From: Geobacteraceae bacterium
GTDB taxonomy: Bacteria > Desulfobacterota > Desulfuromonadia > Desulfuromonadales > Geopsychrobacteraceae
DNA length: 45,245 nt
Direction of reading: 5' to 3'
Assembly: GCA_007125165.1 (NCBI GenBank)
Contig: SLDV01000085.1
Span: 1-45,245, forward strand
The notes below the pieces were generated by a model. It had not been told where the DNA came from. It worked only from the letters and a program-made list of their open reading frames with translations, and searched no databases. The position numbers and the translations under genes were made by a program. This document shows, piece by piece, positions 11,507-18,516 of this stretch (position 1 is the first letter of the stretch; every line of letters starts with the position of its first letter).

Positions 11507-12146
11507 GGCTATTATTTATGATTGTGACGGGGTCTTGTTTGAAAGCCGTGCCGCCAATCTGGCTTATTACAATCGGATTCTTTCGGCTTTCTCCTATCCA
11601 CCTGTCACTGATGAGCAGAAAGAGGCGGCGCACCTGTGCCATACTGCCAGTTCACCGAAGGTTCTGGCCGGATTGATGCGTCCAGAAGATGTTGCCCGGG
11701 CATTGGACTTTGCGATGGGTCTGGATTATCGTGATTTCATTCCTCTGATGAAGCCGATGCCGCATCTGCACCATGTGCTTGAGGTGGTCGCGGAGCGTTA
11801 TCCATTGGCTATTGCTACAAATCGAGGATCCAGCGTCGTTCCGGTTCTTGAGCACTTCGGGCTGAGGGGGTTTTTCCCGGTGATTGTTAACAGTCGTGAT
11901 GTGGAAAACCCCAAGCCTGCTCCGGATATGCTGTTGCTGGCAGCAGAACAGCTTGGACAAGAGCCGCAGGCCTGTCTGTTCATAGGGGATTCAGAGCTCG
12001 ATGAGGCCGCAGCCGCAGCCGGAGCACTACATTTTATCGGTTATGGCGCCCGATTTTTCCAGCATGAGAGCGGCAGGTCGGTTGAACATCATCTGCAACT
12101 GCTGGATTACCTGCGTCTAAATCAGCCCTCTAGTGTAAAAATTTGA
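11493..12146 (+). CDS. HAD-superfamily hydrolase
   Basis: A 217-residue phosphatase-type HAD protein of the phosphoglycolate phosphatase/beta-phosphoglucomutase branch. Motif I is YDCDGVLF (nucleophile and acid Asp residues), motif II ATNRGSS, motif III PKPAPDM with its Lys, and motif IV GDSELDEAAA. A helical cap lies between motifs I and II. The substrate is unknown. GAAGGA at 11481-11486 favours ATG 11493 over a TTG one codon earlier. Its 3' end overlaps tail-to-tail with the ATPase gene on the other strand. Confidence 0.85.
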   Translation: MKELRAIIYDCDGVLFESRAANLAYYNRILSAFSYPPVTDEQKEAAHLCHTASSPKVLAGLMRPEDVARALDFAMGLDYRDFIPLMKPMPHLHHVLEVVAERYPLAIATNRGSSVVPVLEHFGLRGFFPVIVNSRDVENPKPAPDMLLLAAEQLGQEPQACLFIGDSELDEAAAAAGALHFIGYGARFFQHESGRSVEHHLQLLDYLRLNQPSSVKI

Positions 12147-12552
12147 TCATTTCGAGGACATTGACACCTTTTTCTTTTACACATCTGACTTCATCCATCA
12201 ATTTGAGAATGATGTTGACGCCACGCCCCCCCTCGTCACAGGGTTGTGCGTTTATTTTTTGACGTGCGTCGATATCGAATCCTCGCCCCTGATCATAAAC
12301 CCGGATAATCAGATCATCATCAGAGGCAGAGATGTTGATAAAGACATATTTTTCCGGGTCGGAGGCATTACCGTGGAAAATGGCATTTGTCAACGCCTCG
12401 GTAAGGCACAGATTCAGGTGATAGGCCAGTTCACGCCGATTCCCACGGTAGTTTTTGAGTGAGAAGGCCAGGCTTTCACCGATCTGTCCAACCATGGAGA
12501 GATAGCTGGTCTGATTGGGTACCTTGATGTTCAGTTCAACCCGTTTGGACAT
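12130..12552 (-). CDS. RsbW/SpoIIAB-like serine kinase / anti-sigma ATPase
   Basis: A 140-residue GHKL ATPase of the partner-switching type, which phosphorylates a STAS antagonist and binds a target such as a sigma factor. The N box is LTEALTNAIFHGN, the G1 box DQGRGFD and the G2-like segment GGRGVNIILKL. ATG 12552 is chosen because AAGAAGG sits 5 bases upstream; a TTG start further out would have no such site. It follows the STAS gene after 35 bases and is the last gene of the module. No sigma factor lies next to it, so the target is unknown. Confidence 0.85.
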   Translation of the reverse strand: MSKRVELNIKVPNQTSYLSMVGQIGESLAFSLKNYRGNRRELAYHLNLCLTEALTNAIFHGNASDPEKYVFINISASDDDLIIRVYDQGRGFDIDARQKINAQPCDEGGRGVNIILKLMDEVRCVKEKGVNVLEMIKFLH

Positions 12553-12587
12553 AAAAACCTTCTTTAAAGCGGTGTTGCGTTGACTGC

Positions 12588-12926
12588 TCAAGACTGGTTT
12601 TCGAGGGCCTCATCCAGCGTAGTGAAAATTTCAAAAACGCGATGTAGTCGCGTCAGCTCAAACATTGATCGGACCTGAGGCTGCAGGCAGCAGAGCCTGA
12701 GGCTGCCATCACGGGCACTGGCATTTTTAAAGCCGGAGACCAGGGCCCCCAAGCCGGAGGAATCGATAAAGCGGACGGTACTTAAGTCGATAACCAGTTG
12801 GTATTTTCCTTCATCAAAAAGTTGGAGCATCCTTTCTTTGAGGTTGCCACTGTTGTGCGCATCCATGCGCTCATCTTCAACAGTCAGAATGACCGCGTCA
12901 TCTTTTTCCGTCATTTTTAATTGCAT
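12588..12926 (-). CDS. STAS-domain anti-sigma factor antagonist (RsbV/SpoIIAA-like)
   Basis: A 112-residue single STAS domain. The motif FIDSSGLGALVSG (residues 53-65) carries the serine (Ser56 or Ser57) that is phosphorylated by the partner kinase and dephosphorylated by a PP2C phosphatase in this protein family. Unphosphorylated, it would bind the RsbW-like ATPase encoded next to it and release that protein's target. AGGAG precedes the ATG at normal spacing. The phosphatase for it is most likely the large protein encoded just upstream. Confidence 0.88.
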   Translation of the reverse strand: MQLKMTEKDDAVILTVEDERMDAHNSGNLKERMLQLFDEGKYQLVIDLSTVRFIDSSGLGALVSGFKNASARDGSLRLCCLQPQVRSMFELTRLHRVFEIFTTLDEALENQS

Positions 12927-13007
12927 TGAATGTTCTCCTTTTTATGCTGGTTTATGCATCAGTTTTTGAATTATAGCTCAGATCGTGGGTCAACGTTTCT
13001 TTACCGC
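12927..13007 (-). promoter_or_regulatory. Gap with possible internal promoter for the STAS-ATPase pair
   Basis: On the minus strand a perfect TATAAT (12970-12975) lies about 45 bases before the STAS start. The nearest TTGACC is only 12 bases away from it, and the position 17 bases upstream reads AAACGT, so the -35 is poor. A weak extra promoter would let the STAS and ATPase proteins be made in excess of the large membrane sensor. Confidence 0.3.
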
Positions 13008-16000
13008 TTATTCAAGTACCTTCATAACAAACAGAGTAACATCGTCGTTAAAATGGCGATAGCCGGTAAATAGCCTGATCTGGGTCAGGATGAGGTCGAT
13101 CAGTTCTTGCGGTGTAGACCGGTGGTTTTCGCTAAGCAACTTCTGCAGGCGAGCCTGCCCGAACATGTTCTGGTTGTTGTCTTCCGCCTCAGTGATGCCA
13201 TCTGTATAAAGCAGCAGGATATCTCCCGGCTCAAGGCAGGTTGTTTTCTGTTCGAAATGAACATCCTTGTAAATACCGAAGATCAACCCTTCCGCGTCGA
13301 GGGTTTCAATCTGTTGTTGTCGGTGGCGCCAGAGAAATGGCAGGTTGTGTCCGGCATTGCTGTAAGTGATCAGTCTGTTTGCCGGATTGTACTGCAGATA
13401 AAACATGGTGACAAATAGATCTGACCGGTCAAGGTCTTTGAGAAAATAGCCATTGAGGGCGTGCAGCATTGCCGCGGGGTTATCGATGTCGTAAATGCGT
13501 GAATGAATAAATGTCCGGGTTTCCGCCATGATCAATGCTGAACCAATGCTGTGTCCCGATACATCGGCAATGACAACATCACAGTGTTTATTTTCACGAA
13601 CGATAAAGTCGTAATAGTCACCACCGACCTGATGAGCGGGGACGCAGAGGCCGGCGACCTCAATTTCCTTCATAGGAGGCAGCGCCGCCGGTAGCAGCCC
13701 CATCTGAATTTCCTTGGCGATCTGCATTTCGCGTTCCTGCTCACGGACCAGGACCAGTCGTCCGATCTGTTGTTCATTGCGCCAGGCTATGCCTACTTGA
13801 CCGGCGATATTTTCAAGCAGGGCAATGAATTCAGTCGTAAAAACTCCTTTACCTGAACGCGAAAATGCAGAAAGTATCCCGACCGGTTCCCCTTCGATGG
13901 CAATCGGCATGTGGGCAAAGGAGGTTATTCCCTCTTCGCGTACAATTTCCGATGATGCAGGCTTTTCCAGTTCATTGGTATCATTCACCACGGTAGTGAC
14001 ATTGGAAAGAAAAGCCTGACCAATGTATGTGTCCGTGGAGAGATTACGCTCAGATTTGCCGAAATGATTGAAGGTTTCGCCGACCAGACTCTTTACCAGC
14101 AAAGTGCGGGTTTTGGGTTCGAGAAAGCGGATCACGCAGAGGTCGAATTTGAACTGTTGTGCCAGCAACTCGAGGATACGATCAAGTCTGGACTGGAAAC
14201 TCTCACTGCTTGAAACGAGCTGGGAGATGTCATACAGAACACTTAAGTGCTCCCTGCTGATGGCACCGTCGATCGTGACGCTGCCAAAAATATCGAATAT
14301 ATCTTCCATCTCGCTGCCGCGGGCATTGAGATAGTTTTCCAGGATGATGCGTGCTGAACCGGCACCGACATGACCGGCCAGAGTTTTTTCGGTAAAGCTT
14401 TTCAGGCTGAAGATGTCCTGATCATTGAGACTGCCGCGATGATCAATCTCCTTGTCGGCGAGAAACGCGGAAATAGCATTTTGTGCTGGTTTTTCACCAA
14501 TGAATTTAGACATCAGATCAACAAATTCAACAATCGTTGGCGCTTTGCTGATGCGGGTGAGTTTTTCATCAGACTGCTCCTGGGGCGCAAAAACATCAAC
14601 AAACATGATGGCTCTGGTTTTCTCCGCAGAACTTTGTCTGGTCAGGATCGACAGAAAGCAGTAGGTGCCAAGGTTAAACATCAGGCTCCAGAACAGCGCA
14701 TGAGTATACATGTCGAACCCGCTCAACCCAAACAGCTCAAGGGGTTTAAGCAGGCCGATACCCATGGGACCCTCTGACAGCAATGTCGAGGTGATCCAGC
14801 CGGAGCGAACAAAGGAGGGGATAAGCAGGGTGTAGACCCAGATGAAAAAACCCAGACTGATCGACCAGATAGCGGCATGCTTGTTGGCGCGTTTCCAATA
14901 GATAGCACCGATCATGGCCGGGGCAAACTGTGCGGCAGCCATGAATGAGATCAGGCCGATATTGACCAGGGTATAGGAGTCACCGATGACGATAAAGTAA
15001 AAATAACCCATCAGAATGACGCCGAAAATACCCAGCCGTTTAATGTTGATCAGCAGGCCGGAGAGGTCTTGTGCCCGCAGCTTCAGTTTCAGGATAACGG
15101 GCATGACCAGATGATTGAGGATCATGGTTGCCAGAGCAACAGAAGAGACCATGACCATTCCCGCCGCGGCAGAAAGGCCGCCGATAAAAACCAGCAGCGC
15201 CAGCCAGGGTTGATTGGCTGCCAGAGGCAGGGTCAGGACAAAATAATCGGCCTGTGAGGTGTCACCATCGTTCAGGAGTATCCCAGCCATGGCAATGGGA
15301 AGGACAAACAGATTAATCAGAAACAGATACGCTGGAAAGCGCCACATGGCTTTTTTGATATGATCTTCGTTTGAGTTTTCCGTCACCATGATATGAAACT
15401 GGCGCGGCAGAAACATGATCGCCGCCATCGAAATGGTAATCAGGGTGAACCAGTGTGTGTACGGCACTGCTTCCGTACCGACGGCAAACAGATCTGTGCG
15501 CTCCGGGAATCTTTCATAAAATTGCTGAAAAAGGTCAGTGAACCCGTTGAACATTCCGTAGGTGACAAAAATACCAACAGTCAGAAAGGCCACCAGCTTG
15601 ACCAGCGACTCCAGCGCTACGGCGACGACAAGACCCTCGTGACGCTCAGAGGAATCAAGGTGACGGGCACCAAAAATTATTCCAAAAAGCGCCAACAGCA
15701 AAGTGACAATAAAGGCAGAATCAAGTTGGCCCGGTAAGTAGGGAATAAGCTTTGATGCCGGTTCCTGGATGTTTTTAAGGGGCAGAAATAAAATTTCCAG
15801 GGTTTGAGCAATCGCCTTGAGCTGGAGAGCAATGTAGGGGGTTGTGCCCAAAACGGCAAACAGGGTGACAATCGCACCAAGGATTGCCGAACGATCATAG
15901 CGGCTGGAGAGAAAGTCGGCGAGACTGGTAATATTCTGTTCCCTGCTGACGCGAACCATTTTGCGCAGCAAAAACCACCAGCCAAAAGCGATCAGGGTCG

Positions 16001-16232
16001 GTCCAAGATAGATGGGTAGATAAGCAATCCCGGTTGTTGCTGCCTTGCCAACACTGCCGTAGAATGTCCAACTGGTGCAGTAAACGGCAATGGACAGGGT
16101 GTAGATGTGTGGGCTTGAGAGCAGGCTGCGGCCAGCCTTGCGGCGGCGATCGGCATAAAAGGCAACAAAAAAGATGAGGGCAAAATAACACAGGGAGATG
16201 GCGATGATGGTTTCTGCGGAGATCACAGTCAT
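13008..16232 (-). CDS. Symporter-like sensor fused to STAC-like, GAF and SpoIIE/PP2C phosphatase domains
   Basis: A 1074-residue membrane protein. Residues 1-530 look like the SSS (sodium/solute symporter) sensor half of CbrA-type kinases: SIAVYCTSWTFYGSVGKAA (47-65) and GGLSAAAGMVMVSSVALATM (351-370) are telling, with about 13 membrane segments. Residues about 560-637 resemble the STAC linker (FVDLMSKFIGE, TLAGHVGAGSARIILENYL). A GAF-like domain covers about 660-820 and a short helical linker 825-850. A PP2C-like SpoIIE phosphatase domain follows with GGDYYDF (870-876), ADVSGHSIGSAL (889-900), YTDGITEA (1009-1016) and DDVTLF (1063-1068), the metal-binding acids being present. No histidine kinase domain is present. 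It probably senses or moves a solute and dephosphorylates the neighbouring STAS protein; ligand unknown. Confidence 0.88.
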   Translation of the reverse strand: MTVISAETIIAISLCYFALIFFVAFYADRRRKAGRSLLSSPHIYTLSIAVYCTSWTFYGSVGKAATTGIAYLPIYLGPTLIAFGWWFLLRKMVRVSREQNITSLADFLSSRYDRSAILGAIVTLFAVLGTTPYIALQLKAIAQTLEILFLPLKNIQEPASKLIPYLPGQLDSAFIVTLLLALFGIIFGARHLDSSERHEGLVVAVALESLVKLVAFLTVGIFVTYGMFNGFTDLFQQFYERFPERTDLFAVGTEAVPYTHWFTLITISMAAIMFLPRQFHIMVTENSNEDHIKKAMWRFPAYLFLINLFVLPIAMAGILLNDGDTSQADYFVLTLPLAANQPWLALLVFIGGLSAAAGMVMVSSVALATMILNHLVMPVILKLKLRAQDLSGLLINIKRLGIFGVILMGYFYFIVIGDSYTLVNIGLISFMAAAQFAPAMIGAIYWKRANKHAAIWSISLGFFIWVYTLLIPSFVRSGWITSTLLSEGPMGIGLLKPLELFGLSGFDMYTHALFWSLMFNLGTYCFLSILTRQSSAEKTRAIMFVDVFAPQEQSDEKLTRISKAPTIVEFVDLMSKFIGEKPAQNAISAFLADKEIDHRGSLNDQDIFSLKSFTEKTLAGHVGAGSARIILENYLNARGSEMEDIFDIFGSVTIDGAISREHLSVLYDISQLVSSSESFQSRLDRILELLAQQFKFDLCVIRFLEPKTRTLLVKSLVGETFNHFGKSERNLSTDTYIGQAFLSNVTTVVNDTNELEKPASSEIVREEGITSFAHMPIAIEGEPVGILSAFSRSGKGVFTTEFIALLENIAGQVGIAWRNEQQIGRLVLVREQEREMQIAKEIQMGLLPAALPPMKEIEVAGLCVPAHQVGGDYYDFIVRENKHCDVVIADVSGHSIGSALIMAETRTFIHSRIYDIDNPAAMLHALNGYFLKDLDRSDLFVTMFYLQYNPANRLITYSNAGHNLPFLWRHRQQQIETLDAEGLIFGIYKDVHFEQKTTCLEPGDILLLYTDGITEAEDNNQNMFGQARLQKLLSENHRSTPQELIDLILTQIRLFTGYRHFNDDVTLFVMKVLE

Positions 16233-16254
16233 ATCATTCTCCGTTCAGCCCGCA

Positions 16255-16521
16255 TCATTGATCTGTATTACCTGTGCTGTTGTGGTGTTCCATGTCTGCC
16301 TCGGATCGGGATTCCTTTTCCAGGCGCCGGACAAACAGCCAGATAACAGCAATGGAAGCCGGCCATCCGTACATGAAATACACCACCAGCCTGGGAATGC
16401 CGATAAACGACAAGTCACTGTCGAAAATATGGATGAAGGGGAAGTTGATCATGACCATCCCGAGGATCATGAACAAAATCCATGCTTCACGTAAAGAGCT
16501 TTCGGGGTGACTTTTTTTCAT
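16255..16521 (-). CDS. Small two-helix membrane protein preceding the symporter-like sensor (CbrX-like)
   Basis: An 88-residue protein with two hydrophobic helices, about 13-33 and 43-64, separated by a short loop (IFDSDLSFIGIPRL) and followed by a charged tail. It begins 22 bases upstream of the large sensor gene, so the two are probably co-expressed. Its pattern (NFPFIHIF, then a loop with GIP and a second helix with YFMYGW) is like the small membrane proteins encoded just before CbrA-type sensor kinases, for which an accessory role is suspected. The likeness is from memory of that family, not from a search. Confidence 0.7.
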   Translation of the reverse strand: MKKSHPESSLREAWILFMILGMVMINFPFIHIFDSDLSFIGIPRLVVYFMYGWPASIAVIWLFVRRLEKESRSEADMEHHNSTGNTDQ

Positions 16522-16767
16522 TTTTACGCCTCTTGGGTCCCCGTTAAAGGTCGGGGTGGTTTCAAGGCATGACCCACCAGATGACAGACTAATCTTCCGT
16601 TTCCATAATTACAACCGACAACAGCAAATTTATCACTTTTTCGCCTGTTATGACAGTTTGTTGCGGTCTATGGTTTCGTCGACACATCTTTTGAAATAAT
16701 GACACTTGTGCTATGAATAGACGGCACAAGAAAAACTTTCAAGAACACAATAATGTGAAGGCTTGCT
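16522..16767. other. Divergent intergenic region with inverted repeat
   Basis: This 246-base gap separates the minus-strand signalling module from the plus-strand lipoprotein operon. An inverted repeat CTTGTGC (16705-16711) and GCACAAG (16724-16730) with 12 bases between could be an operator. On the plus strand TTGAAA (16691-16696) and TATGAA (16712-16717) are only 15 bases apart, a weak promoter whose -10 would lie inside the repeat. Near the small gene, CCCCG (16539-16543) and CGGGG (16552-16556) can pair in the minus-strand leader. Confidence 0.4.
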
Positions 16768-18516
16768 GTGATTTTTTTTACTTCTACCAGAAACCTGTTG
16801 TTTCTTCTTTTTGGTGTTCTTGTCGTCCTGCTTGTTGGCTGCAGTACGACTTTTCCGCTGCGGCCAGTTGACCCGGCCATTTCCGCTCCGGCGGCTGATG
16901 GTGCGCTGTTGATGGAGCAACACACCGACCCCCGTTCTCAGGCGCTGTCAGCTTTTGTGCAGTTTCGTCTGGCGGCAACTGACGACGATTGGCAGAATGC
17001 CCTTGACGCACTGCAGCGGGCCACGACCTATGATCCTGATTCTACTTATTTGCAGTTGCTCCTCGCCAGGGTTTACCTCCATCTGGAGCATCCTGAGCCA
17101 GCAATTGATCTACTGAACAGACTGATTGACGATGGTTTTGCGGTTTTCGAAGCCCACCTGCTGCTTGGGGATGTCTATGTCATGCAGCAACAGCCTGCTG
17201 ATGCTATTGACCATTTTACGCGTGCTCTGGAACTGGAGCCGGATAATGAACCACTCTACCTGCGTCTGGCCATGGCCTTTGTGCAATTAGAGCTTATCGA
17301 TGAGGCTCTTGCAACACTGGAAGAATTGCTGCAAAAACGTCCGAATGCCGATCAGGCGCAGATTTCCCTTGCCCGTATCTATCGTGACAACGATCAGCCG
17401 GAAGCCGCTATCCGGATTTTTCGGCGCTACCTTGAGCGCCGACCGGGGCAGTCGTCGATTGTTCTGGAGTTGGGCCAATTACTTGAACAACACGACAAGA
17501 AAGCTGCCATGAAGCTGTATCAGGATGTGTTGCGCGAGAATCCCGCCGCGCCATCGATCCGGCAGCAACTGGCACAGCTTTACCTTACTCTTCAAGAGCC
17601 GGAATTGGCCCTGAAGCAGTTGTTGATTGTCCGTGAGCAGTTGCCGGGCTTATTGCCCGGTGATCAGATCGGACTGCTTTATCTGCATATCAATCGGTGG
17701 CAGGAGGCAGCGAAGGAATTTCATCAAGTAATAGCCGATGGTCAGGACACTGGTCGAGACCACTATTATCTGGCTCTGGCTCTTATTGGTCAGTTGGAAT
17801 ATGAAGCGGCGATAGAGCATCTGAAAAGGGTGGCCTCCGATGAAGGGATCTATCGAGATGCCATGTTACAGCTTGCATATCTGTATCTGCAGCAAGGAGC
17901 CGTTGAGGATGGAACGCATTTGCTGTTGTCTTTACTTGAAGAAGGGCATAAGGACTCCGAGGTTTATTATTACCTGATCGCCTTTTTTCACAACCAGGAA
18001 GATATGATGGCGGCACAAGATTACGCTGAAGAAGCTGTGAGTCTGTATCCGCAAAATGCTCGCCTCCTGTATCAGCAGGGCATTCTTTTTGATGCTATGG
18101 ACGATCATCCGGCAGCCCTTGAAAGTATGGAGAAGGTGCTGCAGATTGATGAGTTTCACGCCGATGCCTTGAATTTTCTGGCCTATTCACAGGCAGAATC
18201 CAGCACTGATCTTGATCTGGCACTAAAACGGGCGAAACTGGCGCTGGAACTGAAACCTGAAGGCTATATCGAAGATACTGTTGGTTGGATCTATTTCAAA
18301 CTGGGGAAATACCCCCAAAGTCGAATTCACCTGGAACGGGCGATCGATCTGCAGCCTGACGATAAGGTCATTCTGGAACATCTGGGTGATCTTTATCACG
18401 CCATGGAACTTTTTGATGAAGCTGAGCAGGCATATCGTGATGCTCTCAATGTGGATCCTGATGCGCCAGGGGTGCTGGAGAAATTGGAAAAATTGATTGA
18501 GGAGCTCGGGCAATGA
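16768..18516 (+). CDS. TPR-repeat lipoprotein
   Basis: A 582-residue lipoprotein made almost wholly of tetratricopeptide repeats. The signal peptide ends in the lipobox LVGC with Cys25; Ser at +2 fits release to the outer membrane. About 13-14 TPR units run from residue 60 to the end, for example FEAHLLLGDVYVMQQQPADA, EPLYLRLAMAFVQLELIDEA and IEDTVGWIYFKLGKYPQSR. Such proteins serve as scaffolds for envelope complexes; the partner here is unknown. The start is GTG 16768 with GAAGG 6 bases upstream. Its stop overlaps the next lipoprotein start (ATGA). Confidence 0.88.
   Translation: MIFFTSTRNLLFLLFGVLVVLLVGCSTTFPLRPVDPAISAPAADGALLMEQHTDPRSQALSAFVQFRLAATDDDWQNALDALQRATTYDPDSTYLQLLLARVYLHLEHPEPAIDLLNRLIDDGFAVFEAHLLLGDVYVMQQQPADAIDHFTRALELEPDNEPLYLRLAMAFVQLELIDEALATLEELLQKRPNADQAQISLARIYRDNDQPEAAIRIFRRYLERRPGQSSIVLELGQLLEQHDKKAAMKLYQDVLRENPAAPSIRQQLAQLYLTLQEPELALKQLLIVREQLPGLLPGDQIGLLYLHINRWQEAAKEFHQVIADGQDTGRDHYYLALALIGQLEYEAAIEHLKRVASDEGIYRDAMLQLAYLYLQQGAVEDGTHLLLSLLEEGHKDSEVYYYLIAFFHNQEDMMAAQDYAEEAVSLYPQNARLLYQQGILFDAMDDHPAALESMEKVLQIDEFHADALNFLAYSQAESSTDLDLALKRAKLALELKPEGYIEDTVGWIYFKLGKYPQSRIHLERAIDLQPDDKVILEHLGDLYHAMELFDEAEQAYRDALNVDPDAPGVLEKLEKLIEELGQ

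Follow-up and report, generated by a model that had tools for sequence, protein, structure and literature searches.

Bacterial receptors in which a transporter-like SSS (SLC5) domain is followed by a STAC domain have been characterised only with kinases, as in CbrA of Pseudomonas and in the CrbS/R and RpuS/R systems of acetate and pyruvate use (PMC9100948). Partner switching is known with other sensors, and in the RsbU/RsbP-RsbV-RsbW-SigB and SpoIIE-SpoIIAA-SpoIIAB-SigF systems of Bacillus it combines a sensor-PPM phosphatase, a STAS antagonist and a Bergerat ATPase. In SiaABCD of Pseudomonas aeruginosa, a membrane-bound sensor carries a PP2C domain and a STAS-like protein is under kinase-phosphatase control, as is proposed here. 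The locus described below brings the two kinds of system together in one cassette. It lies in a window of 45,245 nucleotides (the whole stretch of DNA that was analysed: contig SLDV01000085.1 of assembly GCA_007125165.1, from a Geobacteraceae bacterium of the order Desulfuromonadales, class Desulfuromonadia, phylum Desulfobacterota) and codes for a small membrane protein, an SSS-STAC receptor ending in a SpoIIE phosphatase, a STAS protein and an RsbW-like ATPase. Our reading, to which we assign a probability of about 0.75, is that a solute receptor controls the dephosphorylation of the STAS protein and thereby RsbW and its partner.

The four genes are arranged head to tail on the minus strand in the order small membrane protein (16255..16521, 88 residues), receptor (13008..16232, 1074 residues), STAS protein (12588..12926, 112 residues) and RsbW-like ATPase (open frame 12130..12591), and all four open reading frames stand where the original prediction, a reading of the letters alone, had placed them. 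They likely form one operon, given that the intergenic gaps measure only 22 and 81 bases and that the ATPase frame touches the STAS stop; a promoter and terminator scan of the locus gave signals no stronger than in shuffled sequence. Because related RsbW proteins begin at an internal ATG, equivalent to position 12552 here, the ATPase probably comprises 140 residues (gene 12130..12552) rather than the 153 of the open frame.

This arrangement is widely conserved. With a threshold of E 1e-30, receptor relatives, mostly full length, were found in 124 of the 136 genomes of the order, and in the 45 order genomes whose loci were read, the small gene preceded the receptor in every case (45/45) while STAS and RsbW followed it except at contig ends. 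Within the order, TPR-lolB-oppA on one side and HAD-lgt-rluA-IHF-sppA-rpsA on the other mark the constant chromosomal position of the cassette. Eight genomes from other orders of the class also contain the complete, linked set of four genes, and the recurrence of the same gene order in these and in the 45 order genomes places the linkage far beyond chance; STAS and ATPase genes are thus linked to the large gene across its relatives. In an even sample of 395 genomes of the phylum, the full-length receptor phosphatase and an RsbW orthologue (≥45% identity) occurred in the same 17, a count inflated by relatedness, though the loci are also linked. No cassette relatives were found in viral contigs. 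A 520-residue gene lies directly upstream in the same direction at several loci (L054:10911-12473, L055:6282-7844, and also L038, L040, L041, L043, L045, L048, L050 and those of family f17), and in some genomes it overlaps the small gene; its product has a C-terminal AAA_33 P-loop domain and an N-terminal half resembling an aminoglycoside-phosphotransferase-type kinase. In one complete genome (G105, locus L044), the receptor frame is split by a single in-frame TAG into pieces of 688 and 374 residues.

The predicted make-up of the receptor as an SSS, GAF and SpoIIE protein was borne out by Pfam. The SSS domain (residues 1-545; 14598..16232, minus strand) gave an SSF match of 1.5e-5 at residues 33-148, just above the cut-off (24.5 against 22.8 bits). 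The STAC domain (residues ~567-637; 14322..14534, minus strand), a feature also anticipated from the letters, received no match from Pfam or NCBIfam models. It is supported by phmmer, which aligned receptor residues 7-636 with the SLC5-STAC chain 10ed_A through the STAC region (E 1.7e-73, with SSS and STAC taken as one query), and by the AlphaFold2 model (mean predicted local distance difference test score, pLDDT, 80; predicted template modelling score, pTM, 0.54), in which four helices occupy the STAC position (567-578, 580-591, 604-622 and 624-637). Both lines of evidence support a STAC domain directly after the SLC5 domain. PDB entry 10ed, recorded under the name 'histidine kinase', agrees in residue numbering with the CbrA SLC5-STAC structure described in PMC13022988 and is presumably that structure. 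Overall, the model predicts a helical SSS half, the four helices at 567-637, a GAF fold, a single helix at 800-846 and a PPM fold. In structure comparison with VIA-align, the SSS half matched SGLT1 (Z 29.7, 476 aligned residues, root-mean-square deviation (rmsd) 3.1), and 10ed was not among the best matches of the fold search, whose structure library extended to April 2026.

The sensor half agrees with CbrA at the Na2 site and departs from it in the ligand pocket. K212 is the counterpart in the alignment of CbrA K196, the Na2-site lysine thought to make that transporter proton-coupled (PMC13022988), and is retained in 25 of the 26 receptors of the phosphatase clade. In the most divergent receptor of the class (L062:7898-11152, genome G378) valine takes the place of this lysine, which suggests that the transporter half of that protein is altered or serves for sensing only. 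The pocket positions S53, A56 and F248 of CbrA correspond to T53, T56 and S268 in the receptor, residues shared by most kinase-type receptors in the tree set. Since these three histidine-pocket positions differ, as they do in most kinase-type receptors, histidine is not the expected ligand; by analogy with CrbS and RpuS (PMC9100948), our guess would be a small carboxylate. Genes neighbouring the kinase-type receptors, which include one VC_2705-type symporter, DUF294 and exonuclease genes, are only weakly suggestive of the ligand. The small membrane protein has two predicted helices (7-34 and 38-81), in line with the membrane protein foreseen there, and conserved residues N26, P28, F33, P43 and W53. 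Pfam gave it no match, and a search of the PDB set with its profile yielded no CbrX chain, so that we call it CbrX-like on the strength of its position and predicted helical hairpin. It is encoded directly 5' of the receptor in all order loci and also precedes several histidine kinase receptors (L064, L065, L067, L068).

In the output half, the GAF domain (residues 677-817; 13782..14204, minus strand) matched Pfam GAF_2 at 3.5e-14 and the Geobacter sulfurreducens GAF structure 2qyb with Z 21.8, rmsd 2.4 and 40% identity. Given how closely 2qyb matches a Geobacter receptor orthologue (E 3e-76, across the linker as well), this structure very probably represents the GAF domain of the G. sulfurreducens orthologue. 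The phosphatase domain (residues 856-1074; 13011..13667, minus strand) matched Pfam SpoIIE at 1e-50 (residues 883-1072), carries the metal-binding residues D872, D890, D1011 and D1064, which are invariant across 19 aligned receptors, and resembles the SiaA PP2C domain in fold (Z 27.8). Structure comparison of the receptor also matched RssB and the RsbU/RsbW protein Rv1364c. Pfam detected no HisKA domain on the receptor, and as its C-terminal domain is SpoIIE, it does not belong to the receptors with histidine kinase output. The identities given earlier to the two downstream products were likewise sustained. The STAS protein, of RsbV/SpoIIAA type, matched Pfam STAS at 3.7e-24 and TIGR00377 with 87.6 bits (cut-off 53.45), and bears the phosphosite motif DSSGLG, of which DSSG is present in all aligned relatives. 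The ATPase matched HATPase_c_2 (1.5e-19, 70.7 bits) and conserves the TEA..N (Glu/Asn), DxGxGF and GRG motifs of a Bergerat ATPase. As judged from the alignments, the active-site motifs of phosphatase, STAS protein and ATPase are all intact.

Comparison with kinase receptors indicates how the phosphatase output arose. The nearest receptors outside the class have the architecture SSS-STAC-GAF-HisKA-HATPase, with a kinase in the place of the phosphatase, and homology with the nearest of these histidine kinase relatives stops at residues 820-841, inside the continuous helix (predicted at residues 800-846; 13695..13835, minus strand) that leads from the GAF domain to the phosphatase. Trees of the SSS-STAC part united the SpoIIE receptors of the class in one clade among kinase receptors (support 100/99), which upholds the original prediction of a CbrA-type sensor with its kinase output replaced. 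A 1208-residue SSS-STAC-GAF-SpoIIE-HATPase fusion in Streptomyces sp. WMMB 322 (L135:7001-10627), accompanied in that genome by a paralogue of 78% identity, branched elsewhere in the tree, and a joint clade with the class receptors was rejected (approximately unbiased test, p-AU 2.6e-5). A sample of 246 other genomes of its class yielded no fusion of this type. As the class clade sits among kinase receptors and a single clade with Streptomyces is rejected, the data support an exchange of the kinase output for a phosphatase in the class ancestor and, counting Streptomyces, at least two such exchanges, the direction being assigned by parsimony. Coiled-coil linkers have been put forward, with supporting evidence, as the elements through which interchangeable sensor domains signal to PPM phosphatases, histidine kinases and cyclases (PMC12143880). 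An output exchange within a shared helix fits that proposal, of which the present clade offers a clean natural case.

The distribution of the genes points to two separable units, the receptor with the small protein and STAS with RsbW. In family f17, which amounts to a natural receptor deletion, searches for the receptor gave either nothing or weak matches (near E 1e-31 to 1e-36), and STAS was retained in 13 of 14 genomes at 61-67% identity; the eight f17 loci read (L169-L176) keep STAS-RsbW in the same slot with motifs intact, the receptor and small gene being missing. Genomes G001 and G124, in turn, have several receptor paralogues and one STAS protein of the cassette type, which suggests multiple inputs to one switch, an arrangement of many sensors and one hub. 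The home genome encodes only one stand-alone ATPase of RsbW type and, likewise, one single small STAS protein that carries DSSG. It also encodes, on contig C73 (L002), a second SpoIIE phosphatase with an open frame of 743 residues and an extracellular-looking sensor part, possibly another input to the same STAS protein. SpoIIE-output receptor paralogues were also seen as orphans, with no STAS or RsbW gene nearby (L072:6086-9295 and 13997-17188; L057:8452-11691). The surroundings of orphan receptors gave no consistent clue to the ligand; one of these receptors has genes for MFS and aldehyde ferredoxin oxidoreductase proteins close by. The orphans and the receptor-less pair of f17 would both be accommodated if the substrates of the phosphatase lay elsewhere and its linkage with STAS-RsbW were of historical origin, an explanation we consider improbable, as the operon order is unbroken across the class and the phylum-wide occurrence of receptor and RsbW is identical.

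With the parts, the intact active sites, the conserved operon and the replacement of the kinase by a phosphatase in the class ancestor shown, the control of STAS by a solute receptor could operate as follows. Binding or transport of a small solute would set the state of the SSS-STAC receptor, accompanied by the CbrX-like hairpin, and this state would pass through STAC, GAF and the long helix to the SpoIIE/PPM phosphatase. The latter would strip the phosphate from phospho-STAS, and the unphosphorylated STAS protein would bind the RsbW-like kinase, freeing the other partner of RsbW. When no signal is present, RsbW would phosphorylate STAS and hold its partner; the direction of this switch, like the roles of STAS as phosphatase substrate and of RsbW as STAS kinase, is what we would expect of partner switching. 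Three points weigh against this scheme. The SSS domain may have no sensing role and serve solely for transport or anchoring, and a CbrA form lacking its SSS domain was still able to signal (PMC7918813). The f17 genomes have STAS and RsbW and no receptor, so that the pair must there answer to another phosphatase or act alone. Finally, the RsbW protein scored 51.3 bits against an NCBIfam RsbW equivalog cut-off of 145, so far below that family membership gives no warrant for an anti-sigma function.

The partner held by RsbW could be a sigma factor or another kind of protein. As originally noted, no sigma factor gene stands next to the cassette, and none was seen in the conserved flanks of any locus examined. 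The sigma-70 family of the home genome comprises four detected members (RpoD-like, RpoS-like, FliA/WhiG and ECF-like), and the RpoS-like protein is the best single candidate, which we put forward tentatively: RsbW would be its anti-sigma factor, and solute state would gate RpoS activity. Sigma factors are the classic binding partners of RsbW-like proteins, and an RpoS-like gene (E below 1e-90) was present, in f17 as elsewhere, in 80 of the order's 84 good genomes, the four exceptions being drafts of 280-420 contigs. This near-universality means, however, that its presence does not discriminate as a test, and the gene is unlinked to the cassette. To our knowledge, moreover, the targets of RsbW and SpoIIAB known so far are group-3 and not group-2 sigma factors. 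FliA (sigma-28) is a group-3 factor like SigB and SigF, and its choice as output would tie motility to solute state. It was detected (E 1e-40) in only 53 of the same 84 genomes, with 31 lacking it, and the cassette is present without it in G063 (complete, a single contig), G001 and G047. Its absence from so many cassette holders rules FliA out as a general target and makes it a very remote candidate altogether.

The missing linkage to any sigma gene speaks instead for a non-sigma output, which we consider at least as likely as the RpoS-like factor and a little short of even odds: RsbW or free STAS would act on a cyclase, a kinase or a transcription factor, as in SiaABCD, or STAS would itself be the effector, as has been proposed for RbaV. 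The STAS protein is unusually conserved, even in the receptor-less f17 with its 61-67% identity, and in RbaVWY of Rhodobacter capsulatus, where no cognate sigma factor was found, RbaV seemed to be the determinant (PMC3999984). The kinase-like AAA_33 gene is often upstream in the same direction, yet the slot lacks it in the window and in several families, and linkage points to no specific partner. Not being universal, this 520-residue gene was set aside as the obvious output. If the RpoS-like factor were the target after all, a transporter-shaped receptor, and not a stress sensor, would gate it through an RsbV/RsbW switch across nearly the whole class, and a nutrient solute would directly set the general stress programme, a scenario that we regard as unlikely.

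Set against the described systems, the locus shares with CbrA/CbrX the SSS-STAC homology over residues 7-636, the Na2-site lysine and the small helical-hairpin gene directly upstream of the receptor (PMC13022988); it differs in having a SpoIIE phosphatase for the kinase, GAF for PAS, the pocket T53/T56/S268 and no response regulator. CrbS/R and RpuS/R, compared by description, have the same kind of SSS-STAC receptor and differ by phosphotransfer to LuxR-type regulators (PMC9100948). From the Bacillus systems, whose three kinds of protein recur here, the cassette is set apart by its transporter-like membrane sensor, by the lack of a linked sigma factor and by its Gram-negative host. SiaABCD has no SSS-STAC sensor, and the SiaD cyclase is linked there, whereas no cyclase was recognised here. 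RbaV-RbaW-RbaY is likewise a Gram-negative partner-switch trio with no known sigma target (PMC3999984), its sensor phosphatase not being described as an SSS-STAC receptor. The Actinobacteria proteins of SSS-GAF-PP2C_SIG-HATPase type (PMC7918813; L135) unite the SSS-STAC region, GAF and SpoIIE in one chain, but they have the RsbW-like domain fused to it and a phosphatase output of separate origin. The claim that the combination is not a described system stands with a caveat: a review of 2021 mentions in one sentence that Actinobacteria have SSS proteins with GAF and PP2C_SIG domains, with no STAS/RsbW operon (PMC7918813). In a library of open-access papers, no account was found of a receptor phosphatase of SSS-STAC type that has STAS and RsbW genes of its own. 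A conserved operon in the order and its sister orders, Geobacter included, makes this near-universal and apparently unstudied regulator directly testable, and offers a way to study what STAC does apart from histidine kinase biochemistry. Each part is known, and what appears to be new is the joining of an SSS-STAC receptor phosphatase with a STAS-RsbW operon.

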